64,000 nt of DNA from Methylobacter tundripaludum SV96 (GTDB lineage Bacteria; Pseudomonadota; Gammaproteobacteria; Methylococcales; Methylomonadaceae). Below the pieces are notes generated by a model. That model saw only the letters and a list, made by a program, of their open reading frames with translations. It was not told where the DNA came from and ran no database searches. The first letter of the stretch is position 1, and every line of letters begins with the position of its first letter. Positions 7,146 to 48,729 of the stretch are shown here, piece by piece. The stretch covers positions 620,001 through 684,000 of the forward strand of contig NZ_JH109152.1 in the NCBI RefSeq assembly GCF_000190755.2. Reading direction: 5' to 3'. The translations under genes and the position numbers were made by a program.

Positions 7146-7676
7146 ATTACACCTCCCGAGTTATAGCTGGTGGCAACAGCTGGGCAGGCAATACACGCTT
7201 AGCGCGTTGGTAGCGGATTTGAAACAGACGGGCAGAGATTTGGTAGCGTAGCGGCGCATTGGCGACTAGTCAGGTTAATATTGTTCATGGGTGACTACTT
7301 GACTGTGGTTGTATAACCACCGACCGGAGATCTCAAACTCAGGGCGGCGGATGATGTATCGGGTTGAGATACCGGGGCAAGGATCCGGCGAGCCTCTCGG
7401 CTCCTCAATACACCACCCACCATAACTGTAAGGGCATAAAAAAAGCCATGAACCTTTCGGCGCATAGCTGCTACGCCTTGACCATACGGGATGCGAAACC
7501 CGACTCCCGTTTTTGCGAGAGCGTGATTGGGTTAGTTGTAATTTTTTAGTTTGTCAATTGAGGTGTTTGCTTGGTTGGGTTACGGCTAGTAGCTAAACTA
7601 ATCTAAGCGGCTTATTCCATGAACTATAAGTACTTGATAAACAATTTGTTAGTTTACACAGGATCGAGAATTAAGA
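7146..7676. other. Intergenic region with small palindrome
   Basis: No convincing gene. It holds a short hairpin GTGGTT-GTAT-AACCAC at 7305-7320 and a short open frame (7364-7549) without Shine-Dalgarno. It separates the divergent BRO-N pseudogene and OLD nuclease and should contain both promoters, which I cannot place with confidence. Confidence 0.4.
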
Positions 7677-9395
7677 ATGAAATTTGAAGCGATTAGAATA
7701 AAGAATTTTAGAACTATTGAGGGCGAACAGGAAATAGAACTTGGTCACGGTATCACCATTGTTGGCCCCAACAGTAGTGGCAAAACTAATATTCTTAAAG
7801 CAATCGAAATGGTGTTTACTGGCTACGAAAACAAACTTGATTATGACATTAAGGATGATTTAACTTTTGGTGTTGGTAATGGACAAACAAGTCTGATAGC
7901 TACTTTCTCAGGAGATAGGAGTAGTAAAGATAATGAATTCTTTGTTCTTTATGATGAATTAGTAGAGATGCTAGAGGCAGAAAAAGAACCTACGAATACT
8001 TTTGCGTTATATTTGTCATTTGCGAAATCTGGAAAACCAATATACCGATTTTTTTCTAATGAAAAAATGAAAAAGGATTTTCAAGCCCAGTTCTCAAGGA
8101 AACAAATGATTGCAGTCAACACCTTGCTAGATACTTTCGTTTGTCACTATGTGCCTTCTTCAAAAAGTATTAATGATTTGTATAATTCTCTGTTATTGCC
8201 ATTTATTAAGCGTGCAGTATCCCGTGTATTAGAAGATAAACTTCAAGCAATAAATGAAAGTCTACGTTTGATTTCATCACATTTGGATAAACAGCTTGCA
8301 GTTGCTGGGCTTCCGAATATTAAATCTCACTTTTATTTACCTAACGGTTCTTTAGAAGAACTATTGCATCAATTTGAATTTCAACTTTCAGACCCAAATA
8401 AAACCACTATAAATAGGAAAGGAATGGGTATCCAAGCGTCCGCGATACTTGCATCCTTCCTGTGGATCACTAAAGAGGAAAAGCGTCATGATAAAAGTCC
8501 TATTTGGCTAATAGAAGAGCCAGAATCATATTTGCATCCTCAGTTAGCCGAATCATGCCATAAAATGCTTAATGAAATTAGTATGGAGGCTTTATTAGTT
8601 ACAACAACTCATTCGCTTGGGTTCGTCAGTCAAGACCCCAAAAAAATAATTGGTACTATGCTCGATAATAATACGACGAAAGTAATTAAATATGATACTT
8701 ATGTTGGAGCTACATCTTCTATACGTAGTGCCCTTGGTGTGAGGTTTAGTGATTACTATAACTTAGGGTTATTAAATGTTTTTGTAGAGGGAAAGTCGGA
8801 CAGAGAAATATTTCAATGGTTTTTAGGTAAAGTTAAGTCACAGGAAGATGGAAAATATTCCTGGGTTCATGTTAGGGCGGCTGAGTTTCTTGATTTTTCT
8901 GGTGTTTCTGGGATAGAAGGATTTATGAAAGCTACCTATGAGTTCATATATAAAGAGCGCCCAGTCATAACTGTTCTTGATGGCGACACTGCTGGAGACA
9001 AAACGAGACGAGCACTTCAGCAATACTTTGGTAATAAGGAAGTTCCTTTTCAGGCCAATATAAATTTTATTAGTTTGCATACCGGGTTTTCTCTGGAAGG
9101 TTTGTTCCCGCATGAGTGGATAATAGATGCACATGAAGAGCATCCTAATTGGTTTAGTGAATATTCAATTGATGTGGAAGGTAAGCTACAGCCTTTTCTC
9201 ATGAAAACTGACAAAAATAAGGAGCAATTAAGACACCATTTAATTGCTAAAGCTGATATTCAAGAAAATTATGAGTGGATCGTTAGATTCGAGACGGTGT
9301 TAGATATGCTTGATAGCGGGCTAGAAAAAGCCTATTTAGACACATACGGCACAAAAATGGAAAGCTATAAGGTGGATTCGCCACTAGCCATGTAG
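7677..9395 (+). CDS. OLD family ATPase-TOPRIM nuclease, orphan
   Basis: 572 residues. N-terminal ABC-type ATPase half: Walker A GPNSSGKT near residues 30-37, Walker B IWLIEEPESYLHP near 276-288, then a His-containing switch (TTTHSLGF). C-terminal TOPRIM half: the acidic residue in FVEGKSDREIF near 368 and the DGD pair (VLDGDTAG) near 435. This is the layout of OLD nucleases, used in phage defence alone, with a UvrD-like partner (Gabija) or with retrons. No helicase or reverse transcriptase gene lies next to it. The gene is markedly more AT-rich than its neighbours. The last codons (KVDSPLAM) come from a dispersed repeat, so the native C-terminus may have been replaced. Confidence 0.85.
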   Translation: MKFEAIRIKNFRTIEGEQEIELGHGITIVGPNSSGKTNILKAIEMVFTGYENKLDYDIKDDLTFGVGNGQTSLIATFSGDRSSKDNEFFVLYDELVEMLEAEKEPTNTFALYLSFAKSGKPIYRFFSNEKMKKDFQAQFSRKQMIAVNTLLDTFVCHYVPSSKSINDLYNSLLLPFIKRAVSRVLEDKLQAINESLRLISSHLDKQLAVAGLPNIKSHFYLPNGSLEELLHQFEFQLSDPNKTTINRKGMGIQASAILASFLWITKEEKRHDKSPIWLIEEPESYLHPQLAESCHKMLNEISMEALLVTTTHSLGFVSQDPKKIIGTMLDNNTTKVIKYDTYVGATSSIRSALGVRFSDYYNLGLLNVFVEGKSDREIFQWFLGKVKSQEDGKYSWVHVRAAEFLDFSGVSGIEGFMKATYEFIYKERPVITVLDGDTAGDKTRRALQQYFGNKEVPFQANINFISLHTGFSLEGLFPHEWIIDAHEEHPNWFSEYSIDVEGKLQPFLMKTDKNKEQLRHHLIAKADIQENYEWIVRFETVLDMLDSGLEKAYLDTYGTKMESYKVDSPLAM

Positions 9396-33163: not shown

Positions 33164-34105
33164 ATGACGACACTACTTTGGCTACAAACCGGTTCCTGCG
33201 GCGGCGACACCATGTCGATTCTATGCGCGGACAGCCCATCACTGGAAGAACTCATTGATGAATACAGCATCGAGATGCTCTGGCAGCCCTCCCTTTCCAT
33301 AGAACCGACGAGCAGACTGGATACGTTGATCGAGGCGATTATCGCGGATCAACAAGCCCTCGACATTTTATGCATTGAAGGCAGCATCATCACCGGACCC
33401 AATGGCTCAGGCATGTACGATCCGTATCGTGGGCGTTCCAAAATGAGCCTGGTCAGTGAACTGGCCGAAAAGGCTGAATACGTAGTCGCTTTGGGTACGT
33501 GTGCGTCATACGGCGGTGTCCATGCCGCGCCGCCCAACCCGACCGACTGTCTCGGCTTGCAGTTCGACAAGCAATCTCCGGGCGGGTTATTGCCGATCGA
33601 ATGGCGATCTCGCAAAGGTCTGCCGGTCATCAATATCTCGGGTTGCCCCGCTCACCCCAATGCGATGACCAAAACCTTGGCCATGCTGGCTTCCGGACTT
33701 CCACTGGAACTCGATCATCTTAACCGCCCCAAGGCCTTTTTCAATAGCACCGTGCATCAGGGCTGCACCCGCAACGAATATCATGAGTACGACGTAGAGG
33801 ACACCGAGTTCGGCGATAAGGGGTGCATGTTCTTTAATCTGGGTTGTCAGGGGCCGGTCACGATGGCCATTTGCAATACCGAACTCTGGAATGGCCGCAG
33901 CAGCAAGACTAGGGCAGGGGTGCCGTGTTTCGGTTGTACTTCCCCCGACTTTCCGCTGGATCAGGACCTGTTCCTCACCGAAAAAATAGGCACTATTCCG
34001 GTACATCTGCCGTTGGGCGTAGAACGGGCCAATTACATGGCCTACAAAAGTCTGGCCCACGATGCGGCTCCCGACCGGCTGCTGAACAAGAAGATGGATA
34101 CTTAA
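33164..34105 (+). CDS. [NiFe] hydrogenase small subunit (group 2 / 1h-like)
   Basis: 313 residues from MTTLLWLQTGSCGGD; the family start (LWLQ.G.C) shows that the ATG at 33164, not 33089, is right. There is no Tat signal, so the enzyme is cytosolic. Iron-sulfur ligands: C12, then ALGTCASYGG, GCPAHP, GCTRNEY, GCMFFNLGCQGP and KTRAGVPCFGC. The second position of the usual CxxC is Asp15 (CGGD) instead of Cys. This subunit passes electrons from the active site through FeS clusters. The product belongs to the short, Tat-less small subunits seen in uptake group 2a, sensory group 2b/2c and high-affinity group 1h; a tree is needed to decide which. Confidence 0.9.
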   Translation: MTTLLWLQTGSCGGDTMSILCADSPSLEELIDEYSIEMLWQPSLSIEPTSRLDTLIEAIIADQQALDILCIEGSIITGPNGSGMYDPYRGRSKMSLVSELAEKAEYVVALGTCASYGGVHAAPPNPTDCLGLQFDKQSPGGLLPIEWRSRKGLPVINISGCPAHPNAMTKTLAMLASGLPLELDHLNRPKAFFNSTVHQGCTRNEYHEYDVEDTEFGDKGCMFFNLGCQGPVTMAICNTELWNGRSSKTRAGVPCFGCTSPDFPLDQDLFLTEKIGTIPVHLPLGVERANYMAYKSLAHDAAPDRLLNKKMDT

Positions 34106-34107
34106 CC

Positions 34108-35646
34108 ATGGCCAGACGAACCATCCAAATCGACCTTAACCGGGTCGAAGGCGATCTCGATTTTCAGCTGGAACTGGAGGACAACAAAGTCGTCGATGCC
34201 CGTTGTATCGGCTCCCTCTATAGGGGGTTCGAACAAATCCTCATGAGCCGTAAGCCCAAGGATTCTTTGGTGATTACGCCCCGCATCTGCGGCATCTGCG
34301 GCACCGCGCAATTAAATGCCGCAGTGCTTGCGCTGGAACATATCGGGCGAATTCCTGTGCCGCCCACGGCCATTCGCATTCGCAATCTGTGCTTGATGGC
34401 CGAGACGGTACAAAGCGATCTGCGGCAATCTTTTATGTTTTTTACTGCCGATTTTTGCCATTCCAAATACGTCGATCGGCCGTTTTATGAAAAAGCGCGG
34501 GCCGCTTTCCTGCCGTTTAAGGGCTCGGTTCACCGCGGCGCTCTCGAACATTCGCGTCATATCGTCGAAATTATCGCCCTGTTTGGCGGCCAGTGGCCGC
34601 ACTCGTCTTATATGTTGCCGGGCGGTGTGACTACGCCTGCGAGCTCTCGCCATATTATCGACAGCCTGTCCATTCTCAACAAGTTGACCCGATGGTTTGA
34701 ACAGGCCATCATCGGGACAGACCTGGATGCTTGGCTGGCAATACAATCCGCCGACGAATTCTTTACCTGGCTGACGGCGAAGGATGCCCATGCCGACAGC
34801 GCCATCGGACTGTTTACGCTGATGAGCCGCGACATAGGCCTGCACAACACGGGGTTCGGCACTCCGCATATGATCAGCTATGGCGCTTATGACGATCCGG
34901 ATGATGCCGGGACTTTTCCCCCGCATCGCAAGCACTTGTTCAGAGCCGGTTTCCTCAATGGCGATACCGGCGACATCGAGCCTTTCGAGCAAGCCGAAAT
35001 TACCGAACATGTACGCTATTCCTGGTTTCAGCCATACCAAGGCGGTCGCCATCCGTTTCAGGGGCAAACCATCCCTGATTACCAACCCCATTCCGACCGC
35101 TATACCTGGTGCAAAGCGCCTCGCTATCAAAATAAAGTCGTGCAAACCGGCCCGCTGGCAGATGCGCTAATCGACGGCGAGCCGCTGATTCGCTCGTTAT
35201 ATCAGGCGGAGGGGGGCAATGCCTGGCTGCGCCAGTTCGCGCGCTTACACCGTACCGCCCGGCTGTTGCATAAAATGCGCGAAACGCTACGCGAGCTGGC
35301 CGCACAGCCTAACGCCCCGCACATGATCTCCCCCGACGAGAAAGAAATCCCCGACGGAGAAGGCTTTGGGTTGGTAACGGCGGCGCGCGGCGCACTGGGG
35401 CATTGGGTGCAAATCACCGACGGCGTTATTAGCCGCTATCAAGTCGTTACGCCAACCGCATGGAATGCATCGCCCAAAGACAGCGAAGGCCGACACGGCC
35501 ATTGGGAAAGCAGTTTGATCGGTTTGACTGTCGACGATCCCGACGACCCGGTGGAAATCGGCCATATTATCCGCTCCCATGATCCTTGTCTGGTCTGTAC
35601 CGTGCATCTACTCGACACGGGCAAACGCATCACTGTATGGCCCTAA
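34108..35646 (+). CDS. [NiFe] hydrogenase large subunit
   Basis: 512 residues from MARRTIQIDLNRVEGDLD, two bases after the small subunit gene. It carries the active-site Ni through Cys pairs RICGIC (residues near 54-59) and DPCLVC near the C-terminus. The L1 motif reads CGICGTAQ, with Gln in place of the usual His. The middle regions ALFGGQWPHSSYMLPGG and DIGLHNTGFG match group 2 and 1h proteins. The L2 motif DPCLVCTVH is followed by a 12-residue tail (LLDTGKRITVWP), the peptide normally cut off after Ni insertion. The tail together with the protease gene next to it shows a processed enzyme. No hyp maturation genes are in the window. Confidence 0.92.
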   Translation: MARRTIQIDLNRVEGDLDFQLELEDNKVVDARCIGSLYRGFEQILMSRKPKDSLVITPRICGICGTAQLNAAVLALEHIGRIPVPPTAIRIRNLCLMAETVQSDLRQSFMFFTADFCHSKYVDRPFYEKARAAFLPFKGSVHRGALEHSRHIVEIIALFGGQWPHSSYMLPGGVTTPASSRHIIDSLSILNKLTRWFEQAIIGTDLDAWLAIQSADEFFTWLTAKDAHADSAIGLFTLMSRDIGLHNTGFGTPHMISYGAYDDPDDAGTFPPHRKHLFRAGFLNGDTGDIEPFEQAEITEHVRYSWFQPYQGGRHPFQGQTIPDYQPHSDRYTWCKAPRYQNKVVQTGPLADALIDGEPLIRSLYQAEGGNAWLRQFARLHRTARLLHKMRETLRELAAQPNAPHMISPDEKEIPDGEGFGLVTAARGALGHWVQITDGVISRYQVVTPTAWNASPKDSEGRHGHWESSLIGLTVDDPDDPVEIGHIIRSHDPCLVCTVHLLDTGKRITVWP

Positions 35647-35649
35647 GCT

Positions 35650-36102
35650 ATGGGTACGCTCCACATTGTTTGTTTCGGTAACGAACTGCACGGGGATGAC
35701 GGCTTCGGCATCCGCGTTTACGCACAGCTCTGCCGGTCGACGTGGACGAAAGATGTCGAGGTGTTCAATGCAGGCATTGCCGGACTCAATGCGCTCCGGT
35801 TTCTTGAGGATTGCAGTCAGGCGATTCTGGTCGATGCCCTGGCCAACTTCGGGAATGTCGGGGAGGTTTTCCTGTTAAGGCCGGAAGACTTGGCCGACAG
35901 ACCCGAGCAGCTCACCGGTCATGGTCTGGGAATTCCGTATTTGCTGGAGGCTCTTAAAGTCATCAGGGAACCGCAGCCGGATATTTTGATCGTGGGTGTC
36001 GAAATAGCCGCCGTCAACCCCTTTTCTCCCGGTTTGTCCGATGAAACCGAGCACGCCATACCCAAAACCGTCCAATTGATACGAGGTCTCTTGTCGGAAT
36101 GA
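35650..36102 (+). CDS. Hydrogenase maturation endopeptidase (HupD/HycI family)
   Basis: 150 residues. It removes the C-terminal peptide of the large subunit after nickel insertion. The family motif GNELHGDDGFG carries the Ni-sensing Glu (E12); the other two ligands are visible as D62 in ILVDALANF and H91 in GHGLGIPYLL. The ATG is three bases after the large subunit stop, and the gene overlaps the signalling gene by four bases (ATGA). Its presence means the operon encodes a dedicated processing enzyme for its own hydrogenase, which argues for a real, assembled Ni site. Confidence 0.9.
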   Translation: MGTLHIVCFGNELHGDDGFGIRVYAQLCRSTWTKDVEVFNAGIAGLNALRFLEDCSQAILVDALANFGNVGEVFLLRPEDLADRPEQLTGHGLGIPYLLEALKVIREPQPDILIVGVEIAAVNPFSPGLSDETEHAIPKTVQLIRGLLSE

Positions 36103-38723
36103 GCCGTCAAAATCCAAATTTTCGCGATGCCGTTGTCGAATCGGTAACGTTCCTCGACTCGACTGCTCCGCCGCGTTGGAAAGGCCGCGTACAGTTACCC
36201 GGCGAGCATCGTCCTATCGATATTCTGATTTTCAATCTTCAGGGCGAATTTCAGGCCGTCCCAGCCCTTTGCCCTCATGAAGGTTGCGATCTGACGCATT
36301 GTCCGCTGTTCAATGAAAACATCCTTGTTTGTCCGGCGCATAGCCGACGCATCGATTTGAAGATTTCCGAACTTCGCGTCAAAGAACTCGACGGTCAATT
36401 TTTGGTGTCCCTGAATACAACCAGTCTGTTTGAAACGGCTGAAAACCGGACCGAAATTACCTCCGGCAGCGAGGGTTTAGAAACAGTGCTGCAACTGCGG
36501 GAGGAAATCGACAAGTTACGGCTGGCCACTCTGAAACAGGAAAAGCAAATTCGCGTTATCACCCAAAGCATGGATGCCATGCTCTGCGAGTCGGAACAGC
36601 AAAAGCTAAAACTCAAAGAAAAGGTGCATCAGCAGCAGGCCTTAAGTCGCTTTGTTGACCGCGTCATGGATACTATTGACGATCTCCTGGTCGTCATTGA
36701 TACGGAAGGCCGGATTCTCCGGCTGAATACGGCGGTGGAGCGCGAACTCGGGCTTACCGAAGCTGAATTACTGGGAACCGGCATCGACGAATTGCTGACT
36801 CCCCTCGAACAACAGCACCTTGCAGGGCAATTGCCGGGTTTGCCCTGGCCGATTCGATCCGTGCTGTTGGAAACCATCCGGCTTAACGGATACTACGCCG
36901 GTGAACATGAGCTTCTGGGCAAAAACAGGGACAACGCAAAATCCATCTACTGGCTGAAGAGCAGTTTGCTGCATTCGGAGCAGGGAAAGCTGGAAGGCGC
37001 CGTTGTAACCGCCTTGAACATCACCGAATTGAAAAACCGGGAGACCCAACTGCAATTGAGCGCCAAAGTCTTCGAAAATAGCAGCGAGGCGATTTTTATC
37101 ACCGATCCGCAGGGCACCATCATGGAGGTCAATGCAGCATTCTGTTCAATCACCGGCTATGAGCGTTCCGAAGTGCTGGGTCGAAACCCCCGGATATTGA
37201 AATCAAAACTGCACGATAAGCCGTTTTATAAACGTCTATGGCGATCGCTATTGGATGAGGGGGGATGGAAAGGAGAAATCTGGGATCGCCGAAAAAACGG
37301 CGAATTCTGCCCGATGCTGCTCAGCATTAACGCCGTCGCTGACAAGCTGGGCCAGTTAACGCATTATGTGGCGATCTCCACGGACATCAGCCAGCAGAAA
37401 CAAACGGAACGGGAACTCAAACAGTTGGCGTACTACGATGTACTCACCAGCCTTCCCAACCGGTCTCTGTTCAAGAATCGATTTGAGCACGAAATCTGTT
37501 TGGCGGAACGTAATAATACCCGTCTCGCCTTGTTTTTTCTTGATCTGGATCATTTCAAGAACGTCAACGATACGCTCGGTCATTGGGCCGGCGACTGTTT
37601 ATTGCAGATCACCTCAACACGTATTCAAAGCTGCTTACGCAAAACAGACACGGTTGCCCGTATGGGCGGAGACGAGTTTACCATCATCCTGCCCGGTTTA
37701 ACCGGCATTACCGATGCCACCGAGCTTGCCCGAAAACTGATTGATGCCATGACCAAACCGGTGCAAATTAAAGATCACACGGTTTTCGTCGGCGTCAGTA
37801 TCGGCATCGCCATTTTTCCCGATGACGGCAATGACTTCTACACTCTGACCAAGCACGCGGATACCGCTATGTACGCGGCCAAAGCGAAAGGCCGAGGCCT
37901 GTTTCAGTATTATGAAGAGGGTATGAACGAGGCGGCACATCAGCGACTATTGCTGGAAAACGCATTGCGCTTGGCCATAGAGCGGGAAGAGTTCCAGCTT
38001 TATTACCAGCCCAAGGCCGATAGCAATTTAAGCCGAATAACCGGCGCCGAAGCGCTGATTCGCTGGAGACGTCCCGGCTTCGGCATTATACCGCCGGACC
38101 GCTTCATCGCTATCGCCGAGGAAACGGCTTTAATTATTCCGCTGGGGAAATGGATACTGAAGACGGCCTGTTTGCAAGCCAAGGTATGGGTTAATCAACT
38201 GCCAGGTTTCCGGCTCGCTATCAATTTATCGCCCCTGCAACTTCTGGCCGATGATTTTATTGTCGTCCTTGATCGCATTCTGGCCGAAACCGACACCAAG
38301 CCCGAATGGATTGAATTGGAAGTGACCGAAGGTCTGATTATGCTCGACATCGTAAAAGCGACCGAACGATTGCATCAAATCCGGGAACGCGGTATCCATG
38401 TTGCGATGGACGACTTCGGCACCGGCTATTCGTCTTTATCCTATTTGCAAAAATTGCCTATCCATACGCTTAAAATCGACCGATCGTTCATCATGGCTTA
38501 TACCAATGACCCCGCCTCGAGCGAGGCGGCATTTATCAAGACCATCGTATCCTTTGGGCAAGTTTTGAATATGACGGTTGTCGCCGAAGGCGTAGAAACC
38601 GAATCCCAGCTGGCGCTGTTACAGTCTTACGGCTGCGATGAGATTCAAGGATATTATCTCTCGCCTCCGTTGCCCGCAGATGAATTTCAGAGGCGCTGGA
38701 TTGATCATGGCGTTGTTGAATGA
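36099..38723 (+). CDS. Rieske-PAS-PAS-GGDEF-EAL signalling protein
   Basis: 874 residues. Domains in order: Rieske [2Fe-2S] domain (about 15-108) with ligands C58-P-H60 and C78-P-A-H81; coiled coil (about 128-185); PAS-like domain (about 187-310); second PAS (about 322-435, ITDPQGTIMEVNAAFCSITG); GGDEF domain with intact GGDEF at 523-527 and an RxxD inhibitory site (RKTD, 514-517); EAL domain with E651-A-L, ELEVTEG, DDFGTGYSSL and EGVETESQ. It can therefore in principle both make and break cyclic-di-GMP. The ATG overlaps the protease stop. The Rieske domain can receive electrons, which suggests that hydrogenase redox state is read by this protein; that link is inference. Rieske fused to GGDEF-EAL is rare in my experience. 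Confidence 0.93.
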   Translation: MSRQNPNFRDAVVESVTFLDSTAPPRWKGRVQLPGEHRPIDILIFNLQGEFQAVPALCPHEGCDLTHCPLFNENILVCPAHSRRIDLKISELRVKELDGQFLVSLNTTSLFETAENRTEITSGSEGLETVLQLREEIDKLRLATLKQEKQIRVITQSMDAMLCESEQQKLKLKEKVHQQQALSRFVDRVMDTIDDLLVVIDTEGRILRLNTAVERELGLTEAELLGTGIDELLTPLEQQHLAGQLPGLPWPIRSVLLETIRLNGYYAGEHELLGKNRDNAKSIYWLKSSLLHSEQGKLEGAVVTALNITELKNRETQLQLSAKVFENSSEAIFITDPQGTIMEVNAAFCSITGYERSEVLGRNPRILKSKLHDKPFYKRLWRSLLDEGGWKGEIWDRRKNGEFCPMLLSINAVADKLGQLTHYVAISTDISQQKQTERELKQLAYYDVLTSLPNRSLFKNRFEHEICLAERNNTRLALFFLDLDHFKNVNDTLGHWAGDCLLQITSTRIQSCLRKTDTVARMGGDEFTIILPGLTGITDATELARKLIDAMTKPVQIKDHTVFVGVSIGIAIFPDDGNDFYTLTKHADTAMYAAKAKGRGLFQYYEEGMNEAAHQRLLLENALRLAIEREEFQLYYQPKADSNLSRITGAEALIRWRRPGFGIIPPDRFIAIAEETALIIPLGKWILKTACLQAKVWVNQLPGFRLAINLSPLQLLADDFIVVLDRILAETDTKPEWIELEVTEGLIMLDIVKATERLHQIRERGIHVAMDDFGTGYSSLSYLQKLPIHTLKIDRSFIMAYTNDPASSEAAFIKTIVSFGQVLNMTVVAEGVETESQLALLQSYGCDEIQGYYLSPPLPADEFQRRWIDHGVVE

Positions 38724-46098: not shown

Positions 46099-48729
46099 AT
46101 GAAAACCAAGATAGTCACTGTCATTGCACTCGCTCTAATCGTCTTTATTAACTTCAGTATTTGGAGTTATGTTAACAATCCTTTGCAATTGCAACCTTGG
46201 ACCAAAACCACTATGGGCGTCACTTTCGACCCCATGAGAAAGCAGGATACACAAAAAAGCGATACCTTTCCCAGCGAAGCCGATATTGACCATGACTTGG
46301 GCTTGCTTGAGAATAAAGTTCACGCCGTTCGTACCTACAGTGTGCTTAAAGGGCTGGATAAGATTCCTGAGTTGGCCGCCAAGCATAATTTGAATACCAC
46401 GGTGGGCGCCTGGATTGATAGCAATCTTGAAAAGAACCGACAAGAAATAGAAACCTTAATCAATGTCAGTCGGCAGAATAATCCTAATATCGTTCGCGTT
46501 ATGGTGGGCAACGAGGTTTTACTTCGTGGCGACATGACCGCAGAACAGCTGATCGAATATATCCGCGAAGTAAAGCGAAACACATGGCGGCCGGTGAGTA
46601 CCTCCGAAACATGGGATATATGGATTAAACATCCTGAGCTTGTTGCGGAAGTCGATTTTATAGCGGTGCATATTCTGCCTTATTGGGAAGGTATTGCCGC
46701 CGAAGATGCGGTTGATTATGTTTTTGACCGTTACCATGACGTGCAAAAAGCGTATCCGAATAAACCTATCGTCATTACCGAGGTCGGCTGGCCTTCAGAC
46801 GGACAACCTTTCAAGCATGCGACTGCATCGGTATCCAATCAGGCAAAGTTTCTGCGCGAATTCCTTAACCGGGCTGATGCCGAAAAAGTCACTTATTACA
46901 TTGTAGAGGCGTTTGATCAACCCTGGAAAATGTCTTTGGAAGGCTCTGCGGGCGCTTATTGGGGTATTTTTAATGCGGACCGGCAGCCTAAATATCCTAT
47001 GGACAGCGATGTTATTGCTATGCCTAACTGGGAACATTGGGCAACCGGCGCGGCTGTTTTCAGCGTCGTGTTGATGGGGCTGTTTTTATTTACCCGCAGC
47101 AGTATGAAACTGCCAGGTTTGTTGTTTTTCGGCTTGATTGCCAATCTTGCTGCATCGACGATATTCTGGTCGGTGTCGATTGGCGCCCAGCAATACCAAA
47201 CCAATCTTTCCATGGTCTTTTGGGGCATCCTGATATTGATGCAGGTCATGGCGGCAGTCATCCTATTGATAGAAACCCTGGAAATAGCGGAAGTCATCTG
47301 GCACCGAAAAACGGCCAGAACTTTTCAGCCGCTTAAGCCATCTCCTGAGTTTAAATATCCCAAGGTCTCTTTGCATTTGCCGATCCATAACGAGCCGCCC
47401 GATATGGTGCGCATGACGCTGGAGGCTTTGGACAGGGTGGATTATCCCAATCTGGAAGTGCTGGTGATGGACAACAACACCAAGGATCCGGCGGTTTGGG
47501 AACCGGTGAAAGTTGATTGCGAACGGTTGGGGCCGAAGTTCAGGTTCTTCCATTTGGATAACTGGCCGGGCTTTAAGGCCGGTGCGATCAATCATGCCCT
47601 TGAGCAAACGGCTCCCGATGCGGAGATTATCGCTGTGATCGACAGCGATTATATCCTGTCGCCTGACTGGCTTAACGCTATGGTGCCTTATTTCGACAAT
47701 GAAAATGTCGGTTTTATCCAATCGCCCCAGGATTATCGCGACCGCGACCAGAGCGCTTTTAAGTCTTTTTGTTACTGGGAATATGCCGGGTTTTTCAATA
47801 TCGGCATGGTGCAAAGAAACGAATACAACGCTATTATTCAGCATGGCACCATGACCATGATCAGAAAGTCTGCGTTGCTGGAAGTAGGCAAATGGTCGGA
47901 ATGGTGTATTTGTGAAGACAGTGAGTTAGGTCTGCGTCTGTATGAAGCGGGCTATGATTCGGTTTACGTTAAGGATTCATTTGGCAAAGGCGTTATGCCC
48001 GATACCATGTCCGGCTACATGACCCAACGCTATCGCTGGGTTTATGGCGCTATGCAAATCATTAAGGCGCATTGGCGCAGCTTTTTACCCTCTAAAAATC
48101 CTGTACTGACACCGGCCCAGAAGTATTATTTTATTGCCGGATGGCTACCGTGGTTTTCGGATGCGCTGGCGCTGTTATTTACCATTACCAGTTTGATCCT
48201 GACTGCCGTGATTCTTTACGATCCGATACACAGCGAACTTCCGGCCAATGCCTTTTTGTTGCCGACCGTTGGGATATTCAGTTTTAAGATCATCCGGGGC
48301 TTGTGGCTATATCAGGCCCGTGTACCATGTTCCATTTGGCAATCATTGGGTGCATCACTGTCAGGATTGGCTTTAACTCATACGGTTGCCAAGGGTACCG
48401 TGCAGGGTTTGTTTACGTCGGGCAAGCCGTTTATGCGCACTCCGAAGTTTGAACAACACAGCGCTTTATTCGTCGGCTTGGTCACCATACGGCAGGAATT
48501 GCTATTGTTGATATTGTTGAGTACGGCTATTGGTATGATGGCTTCCTTGGAGCATTTTGACAATTTTAGCGGCAAATTATGGATAGCGATTCTTTCGGTA
48601 CAAGCAGTCCCTTATGTGGCGGCTTTGTTGACATTATTGATCAGTATTGCACCGGACTATAAGTCCTACAATCCCGAGTTGGTTGTCGAAGAAACAGCGG
48701 CTAACTCTAAGTCAAAGAAGAAAAAGTAG
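46099..48729 (+). CDS. GH17-GT2 fusion, NdvB-like beta-glucan synthase
   Basis: 876 residues. An N-terminal membrane helix, then a periplasmic GH17 domain (about 35-300) with the acid Glu in VGNEVLLRG and the nucleophile Glu in ITEVGWPSDG. Two membrane segments precede a cytosolic GT2 domain (about 415-650) with DSDYILSP, EDSELGLRL and QRYRW. More membrane helices follow and the C-terminus is Lys-rich. This is the layout of NdvB in Pseudomonas aeruginosa, which makes beta-glucans linked to biofilm antibiotic tolerance. The role here is inferred. No Shine-Dalgarno stands out before the ATG. Confidence 0.9.
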   Translation: MKTKIVTVIALALIVFINFSIWSYVNNPLQLQPWTKTTMGVTFDPMRKQDTQKSDTFPSEADIDHDLGLLENKVHAVRTYSVLKGLDKIPELAAKHNLNTTVGAWIDSNLEKNRQEIETLINVSRQNNPNIVRVMVGNEVLLRGDMTAEQLIEYIREVKRNTWRPVSTSETWDIWIKHPELVAEVDFIAVHILPYWEGIAAEDAVDYVFDRYHDVQKAYPNKPIVITEVGWPSDGQPFKHATASVSNQAKFLREFLNRADAEKVTYYIVEAFDQPWKMSLEGSAGAYWGIFNADRQPKYPMDSDVIAMPNWEHWATGAAVFSVVLMGLFLFTRSSMKLPGLLFFGLIANLAASTIFWSVSIGAQQYQTNLSMVFWGILILMQVMAAVILLIETLEIAEVIWHRKTARTFQPLKPSPEFKYPKVSLHLPIHNEPPDMVRMTLEALDRVDYPNLEVLVMDNNTKDPAVWEPVKVDCERLGPKFRFFHLDNWPGFKAGAINHALEQTAPDAEIIAVIDSDYILSPDWLNAMVPYFDNENVGFIQSPQDYRDRDQSAFKSFCYWEYAGFFNIGMVQRNEYNAIIQHGTMTMIRKSALLEVGKWSEWCICEDSELGLRLYEAGYDSVYVKDSFGKGVMPDTMSGYMTQRYRWVYGAMQIIKAHWRSFLPSKNPVLTPAQKYYFIAGWLPWFSDALALLFTITSLILTAVILYDPIHSELPANAFLLPTVGIFSFKIIRGLWLYQARVPCSIWQSLGASLSGLALTHTVAKGTVQGLFTSGKPFMRTPKFEQHSALFVGLVTIRQELLLLILLSTAIGMMASLEHFDNFSGKLWIAILSVQAVPYVAALLTLLISIAPDYKSYNPELVVEETAANSKSKKKK

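Follow-up and report, generated by a model that had tools for sequence, protein, structure and literature searches.

The 64,000-nucleotide stretch of Methylobacter tundripaludum SV96 analysed here (the window; contig NZ_JH109152.1, positions 620,001 to 684,000) carries a four-gene hydrogenase operon at positions 33164..38723, a real and conserved putative H2-sensing system that fits the published hydrogenase group 2c. The operon encodes the small and large subunits of a [NiFe]-hydrogenase, a HycI-type maturation protease and a signalling protein, hereafter the effector, in which a predicted Rieske domain precedes a long helix, two PAS domains (PAS1 and PAS2), a GGDEF domain and an EAL domain. 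The system is probably a cytoplasmic sensor of H2 (or of H2 and redox state) in which the effector would serve as the electron acceptor of its own hydrogenase. Support for this reading at the level of sequence comes from the gene order, the conservation of metal-ligand and catalytic positions, the co-inheritance of effector and hydrogenase, the varied outputs found on a common input, and the kinship of PAS1 with the kinases of group 2b; protease-kinase fusions in related loci and the presumed gas-channel residues of the large subunit also count in its favour.

All four genes lie on the + strand in one tight operon, as read from open reading frames (ORFs) and Pfam matches, which bears out the spacing and the products given in the preliminary description. 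The small subunit (313 amino acids (aa), 33164..34105; Pfam Oxidored_q6 and NiFe_hyd_SSU_C), complete in its Fe-S ligand positions, is followed after 2 bases by the large subunit (512 aa, 34108..35646; Pfam NiFeSe_Hases, 273.7 bits), after 3 further bases by the protease (35650..36102; Pfam HycI, 56.6 bits) and, with a 4-base overlap, by the effector (874 aa, 36099..38723). The small subunit starts directly ahead of its first cluster motif, and the NCBIfam TAT model finds no Tat (twin-arginine translocation) signal on this subunit, as had been described; it does find one on the small subunit of this genome's group 1 enzyme.

The core idea that group 2c is coupled to cyclic di-GMP (c-di-GMP) is already in print, since HydDB labels the group 'Diguanylate cyclase-linked (putative)' and proposes H2 sensing and the regulation of processes via cyclic di-GMP production (passages of PMC5037454). 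According to excerpts of two further sources, a survey of Methylobacter reports hydrogenase groups 1d, 1e, 2c and 3d (PMC12810054), and in a 2025 study of the neighbourhoods of [NiFe]-hydrogenases, genes of the EAL/GGDEF/PAS kind form one cluster and those of the NifU/Rieske kind another (PMC12727194). The operon resembles group 2c as described, being a methanotroph group 2 large subunit beside a GGDEF-EAL gene; it differs in the Rieske domain, and its relatives differ in their kinase outputs and protease-kinase fusions, none of which is mentioned in the available passages of the 2c descriptions. Five features are thus added here to the printed record: the input can bear a Rieske domain, the outputs vary, some proteases are fused to kinases, PAS1 is akin to 2b kinases, and the small subunit has an Asp/Glu signature. 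No description of these five was found in the open-access literature searched, a scope to which Greening et al. 2016, reportedly the founding paper of group 2c, and its supplement do not belong.

Phylogeny supports the placement of the large subunit in group 2, outside the uptake (2a) and sensor (2b) clades, so that the uptake-clade placement named in the preliminary description as a refuting result did not arise. The tree comprises 93 rows and was built by a quick method, with support from the Shimodaira-Hasegawa-like approximate likelihood ratio test (SH-aLRT) without bootstrap; it contains long branches, leaves out L109, L111 and L130, and holds no named 2c, 2d, 2e or 2f references. In it, the window large subunit and 76 others form one clade (SH-aLRT 98), separate from six 2a rows (95) and from six 2b rows (100), the latter including HoxC of Cupriavidus necator. 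An inner clade of 63 rows (SH-aLRT 100) includes the window sequence, the closest large subunit in the tree being that of a Methylobacter locus (L055, 97%).

The motifs of both subunits can be read alongside this placement. Within the large subunit, the L1 motif C61-G-I-C64 (34288..34299, +) contributes two of the four active-site Cys. I63 and F111 align with I62 and F110 of HoxC, which we take to be the narrow gas-channel pair; across 76 clade rows the first position is I in all 76, and the second is F in 52, M in 23 and Y in one. The L2 motif SHDPCLVCTVH (residues 490-500, 35575..35607, +) is shared by 62 of the 63 inner-clade rows, with SHDACLVCTVH in the remaining one; the 2c consensus is quoted as SFDxCLVCTVH, from which the window motif departs, and SHDACLVCTVH has been accepted as 2c for Thiomargarita (PMC4853749). 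Past the final His lies a 12-residue C-terminal extension (35608..35643, +), the predicted substrate of the protease, which measures 12-16 residues in inner-clade loci and 0 in the 2b rows examined. The small subunit keeps all ligand positions of the Fe-S relay. Its proximal-cluster motif C12-G-G-D15 (33197..33208, +) bears the acidic residue that marks the clade: of the 74 labelled clade rows, 63 have Asp and 11 have Glu at position 15, against Cys in 6/6 rows of 2b and Asn in 5/5 rows of 2a. The distal His (H198 in the window) is kept in the window clade and in 2b, and is Gln in 2a (5/5 rows).

Two assignments were rejected on these features. Membership of group 2b is ruled out by the tree, in which the window sequence falls outside the HoxC/HupV clade, by the C-terminal extension together with the protease gene, and by D15 of the small subunit; membership of group 2a is ruled out by the tree, by D15 instead of Asn and by H198 instead of Gln. 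The 2b systems HoxBC/HoxJ and HupUV/HupT nevertheless resemble the operon in being cytoplasmic, in the related PAS domain of the partner, in the distal His and in the presumed I and F pair of the gas channel, whereas the operon differs from them in its separate clade, its C-terminal extension with a protease of its own and D rather than C at position 15. The 2b partner is a PAS histidine kinase; here it is a c-di-GMP enzyme with a Rieske domain. Huc of Mycobacterium smegmatis (2a), with its protein HucE, provides the closest solved structures and shares an associated Rieske protein and a C-terminal extension with protease, whereas the operon stands in a separate clade, with D/E rather than N at the proximal and H rather than Q at the distal position. 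HucE is a NifU-Rieske protein, while here the Rieske domain is fused to the signalling enzyme. All three clusters of Huc are [3Fe-4S] (passages of PMC10017518).

The N-terminus of the effector is identified as a predicted Rieske [2Fe-2S] domain by its CxH...CxxH ligands and its modelled fold. It spans residues 9-105 (36123..36413, +; Pfam 26.4 bits, cut-off 20.3), with ligands C58, H60, C78 and H81. Because a sequence search against solved structures gave weak matches (best E 0.021), the domain was modelled alone (predicted local distance difference test, pLDDT, 87.7) and then searched by fold, and all 50 matches listed were Rieske ferredoxins or Rieske oxygenases (best E 3.7e-3). In an alignment of 24 domains chosen from those at hand, three of them (L041, L042, L053) from the genomes of sampled relatives, the four ligands are invariant in 24/24 and belong to seven invariant columns in all, with identity to the window domain down to 22%. 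Six Rieske-class loci stand outside this alignment (L055, L058, L061, L093, L095, L099); the ligand motif is present in 25 of the 26 Rieske-class loci, the exception being L093. A Rieske hidden Markov model (HMM) gave 40 bits to a ferredoxin-type protein of the same genome (L164), 13-22 to four HucE-type proteins and 1.3 to a bc1-like one (L167), and in view of this greater nearness to a common Rieske ferredoxin a special descent from HucE was rejected.

Modelled together, residues 1-320 form the Rieske domain, a 68-residue helix (residues 125-192, 36471..36674, +) and a PAS domain, with a mean pLDDT of 84.9 and a predicted template modelling score (pTM) of 0.49; PAS domains occupied the match list of a fold search with this model. 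Pfam detects PAS in two stretches of the effector, PAS1 (residues 193-308, 36675..37022, +), which is common to GGDEF-EAL and kinase effectors, and PAS2 (about residues 323-440, 37065..37418, +). An HMM of PAS1, built solely from 2c effectors, finds the kinases at four 2b-type loci (E 7e-13 to 2e-9) and, less strongly, the HoxJ proteins of C. necator (1e-5) and Afipia (3e-5), compared with 0.003 for the direct control, one generic PAS-GGDEF-EAL protein of the window's genome; on this profile comparison, PAS1 is related to the PAS domain of group 2b sensor kinases. The output half is a predicted bifunctional enzyme, with the GGDEF motif and the RxxD site intact in the GGDEF domain (37428..37895, +; Pfam 171.4 bits) and the conserved catalytic positions, as we take them to be, intact in the EAL domain (37959..38669, +; Pfam 228.4 bits). 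The checked positions are likewise kept in the 29 GGDEF-EAL rows, except for one GGDEF or RxxD position each in L066 and L114, several EAL positions in L071, and V for A in EAL in L085 and L100; L067 is cut. In the Methylobacter locus L055 the effector (L055:10855-13469) is split into two overlapping frames of 416 and 469 aa.

The effector and the hydrogenase are inherited together. Co-occurrence was surveyed in three overlapping samples (G000 is in each) of 151 related genomes, 369 of the class and 398 of the phylum, scoring per genome the best 15 candidates for the effector among relatives, the best six in the class and the best five in the phylum. Large-subunit matches at E <= 1e-60 occur in 27 of the 151 related genomes, 20 at 59-100% identity and seven at 37-45%. 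Effector residues 1-313 match in 20 genomes, exactly those with a hydrogenase of at least 59% identity, and in 0/131 others, so that the association raised in the preliminary description withstood the check it called for; in each of the 20, the effector gene lies directly behind the hydrogenase. The match includes the Rieske domain in 16 and begins at residue 125-128 in four. Within the genus sample of 23 genomes, hydrogenase and effector are both found in 10 and neither in 13. A profile of the Rieske-helix-PAS1 module matches seven genomes of the class sample, 7/7 no farther than 7 kb from a group 2 large subunit; three of these are 2c effectors, and the other four fall in ORFs whose 459-480 aa correspond to the length of HoxJ-type kinases. 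In the phylum sample it gives six matches in five genomes, with a large subunit no more than 10 kb away in 5/6. GGDEF matches number 46 in the window's genome, from which an accidental GGDEF neighbour for the hydrogenase is estimated to be a roughly 1% event, and a chance neighbourhood is further disfavoured because the identical gene order recurs in relatives whose large subunits are 53-97% identical.

A survey of related loci shows that the output behind the hydrogenase varies. It covers the best 80 of 508 relatives, of which L131-L134 are other hydrogenases, leaving 76; in seven of these the sequence stops too early for the effector to be assigned to a class (L073, L074, L096, L101, L106, L109, L119), with PAS1 still visible in L073 and L101. 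Domain classes were assigned with HMMs built from a few of the same loci, and Pfam was run on 20 proteins, namely 19 effectors or ORFs in the effector place and one second downstream kinase. A signalling gene follows the hydrogenase in 68 of 69 readable loci, with GGDEF-EAL output in 28, a histidine kinase in 31 and a kinase fused to the protease in nine. The c-di-GMP partner first proposed therefore stands for this operon and falls as a rule for the group, as 40/68 classified loci have a histidine kinase. In the fusions, protease and PAS histidine kinase share a single frame; most of the kinases are hybrids with a receiver domain and often with Hpt, and the loci concerned (L080, L086, L090, L091, L098, L102, L112, L115, L128; L112 is cut short) form one clade on the hydrogenase tree. 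At L110 the HisKA match is below the Pfam cut-off and the HATPase domain is clear.

The Rieske domain accompanies both output types, in 26/68 loci, one of them degenerate: 15 GGDEF-EAL loci have it and 13 do not, as against 11 kinase loci with it (in L069 as a gene of its own, in L093 as a degenerate stretch) and 20 without. A Rieske-PAS-GGDEF-EAL protein stands beside the hydrogenase again in L178, from another genome of the phylum. On the hydrogenase tree the output type changes at least three times, with PAS1, and often the Rieske domain, retained; the Rieske state changes at least four times, three of them within the inner clade, a pattern that agrees with one gain and three losses but is no proof of them. 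Other arrangements also occur. An inner-clade hydrogenase and protease stand without an effector in L108 (Pyrinomonadaceae), the next ORFs being on the other strand. In L180 (contig 20 of G541), the gene behind a 2c-like hydrogenase encodes a PAS-PAS-GGDEF protein that lacks EAL, and a REC-GGDEF gene and a hybrid kinase lie on the opposite side; contig 10 of this genome holds another large subunit of the 2c-like kind.

As a mechanism, the [NiFe] heterodimer, matured by its own protease, would oxidise H2 and bind the effector at its long helix and PAS1, rather as HoxBC binds the kinase HoxJ. Electrons would pass from the proximal through the medial and distal clusters of the small subunit to the Rieske [2Fe-2S] centre at the effector N-terminus. 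Reduction of this centre, docking, or both may shift the PAS1-PAS2 relay, which would alter the balance of cyclase (GGDEF) and phosphodiesterase (EAL) activity. H2 as the signal, the docking site and the electron transfer to the Rieske centre are the steps that we infer. Where present, the Rieske centre, which adjoins the helix of the proposed docking, would be the obvious acceptor. For the group 2b sensor, the cytoplasmic electron acceptor is called yet unknown (passages of PMC5665086).

Several observations weigh against this reading. No Rieske domain was found in 42/68 classified loci, so that Rieske reduction, as proposed in the preliminary description, cannot serve the whole family, and in such loci the signal must pass by another route. 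The domain is degenerate in L073 (a separate gene, L073:3648-4007, without the last His) and in L093 (L093:11971-14058, without the ligand motif), which indicates that the cluster can be lost. Distant loci of the Desulfobulbaceae type mostly have no recognisable PAS1. Contig 76 of G033 carries a weaker extra effector match (36%), a hybrid kinase; the stretch read around it contains no hydrogenase gene, though the contig ends 1.2 kb upstream. The phylum match in G532 has no large subunit nearby. Finally, the input-module profile finds nothing in five other genomes of the phylum sample whose large subunits are 2c-like (E 1e-157 to 1e-171); in the two examined, G541 and G561, the place behind the protease is taken by a PAS-GGDEF protein and a PAS hybrid kinase.

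The alternative that survives best, which we consider unlikely yet deserving of attention, is sensing by contact alone, in which the redox state of the hydrogenase would alter its shape and hence the docked PAS1, and the Rieske domain would be an independent, dispensable second input, for O2 or redox poise, gating the response. The same 42 loci, which keep the hydrogenase-effector pair, speak for it, as do the three or more switches between presence and absence of the domain inside the inner clade, which fit losses. However, the small subunit keeps a complete Fe-S relay and the Rieske ligands are invariant wherever the domain aligns; moreover, in HoxBC, the complex partner of HoxJ, H2 sensing is considered to require that the enzyme turns over continuously and transfers electrons (passages of PMC10073562). 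An uptake or recycling hydrogenase, for which the Rieske protein would be the electron outlet to metabolism and the effector a reporter of electron flux, is improbable. It draws on Huc, the closest solved structure, an uptake enzyme whose activity needs HucE (passages of PMC6883350), and on the C-terminal extension and protease shared with 2a, whereas the clade is separate from 2a, the proximal and distal ligand positions differ, the Rieske domain is not specially HucE-like, and the genome already has a group 1 enzyme with a Tat signal for uptake. No cytochrome b or other respiratory partner was found among the flanking genes scanned by Pfam, a part of the window's ORFs, as had been noted before. 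Mere co-transcription, with the signalling gene under the same promoter and no interaction, is most improbable: the genome is rich in GGDEF enzymes, but the exact co-occurrence in 20/151 relatives, the protease-kinase fusions and the kinship of PAS1 with the kinases of sensor hydrogenases oppose it.

The flanking genes scanned comprise BON, DUF1207, transglutaminase-like, BacA, an NdvB-like glycosyltransferase and a phosphorylase. One of these, the NdvB-like gene (46099-48729), in which Pfam finds a glycosyltransferase and GH17, was once suggested as an output; it begins 7.4 kb past the effector, and what lies behind the effector is not constant from one related locus to another, so that it was rejected as evidence for an output target. 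The interval holds BacA on the other strand, two ORFs and one of 477 aa; the two ORFs ahead of the NdvB-like gene presumably encode pyruvate dehydrogenase E1 and E2, as read by eye. In length and strand, the genes next behind the effector (275 aa, reverse; 892 aa, forward) agree with those at the Methylobacter locus L056. Promoter- and terminator-like sites are no more frequent than in shuffles. Elsewhere in the window, at 7340-7427 on the - strand near an AAA-ATPase gene (7677-9395), lies a C4 antisense RNA (Rfam, 55.2 bits), a family known from phages. The genome (4.85 Mb, three contigs) has as further hydrogenases the group 1 enzyme with a Tat signal and a group 3-like large subunit. Its one HypD and the group 1 large subunit are about 9 kb apart, and of its two HycI matches one is in this operon and the other beside the group 1 enzyme. 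About 3 kb from the group 3-like large subunit (L036, contig 1 from 1568000) is a PAS-GGDEF-EAL gene whose PAS domain is not of the PAS1 kind (E 0.003).

A wider generalisation, to which we give slightly less than even credence, is that the H2 sensors of group 2c make up a modular family. Electrons would pass a proximal cluster whose fourth ligand position is a carboxylate, and then the distal cluster, to a Rieske centre built into the signalling enzyme, and evolution would have joined the Rieske-helix-PAS1 unit to c-di-GMP enzymes, kinases and phosphorelays. If the effector does accept electrons as proposed, it would be the first named electron acceptor of a sensor hydrogenase, and the question of how such enzymes transfer their signal would become a spectroscopic one on two purified parts, because a redox centre of known type is built into the signalling enzyme. 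The common input module would, if the proposal is true, offer a ready part for H2 biosensors with chosen outputs. For methanotrophs, it would mean that H2 sets c-di-GMP, tying a trace gas to attachment or motility.

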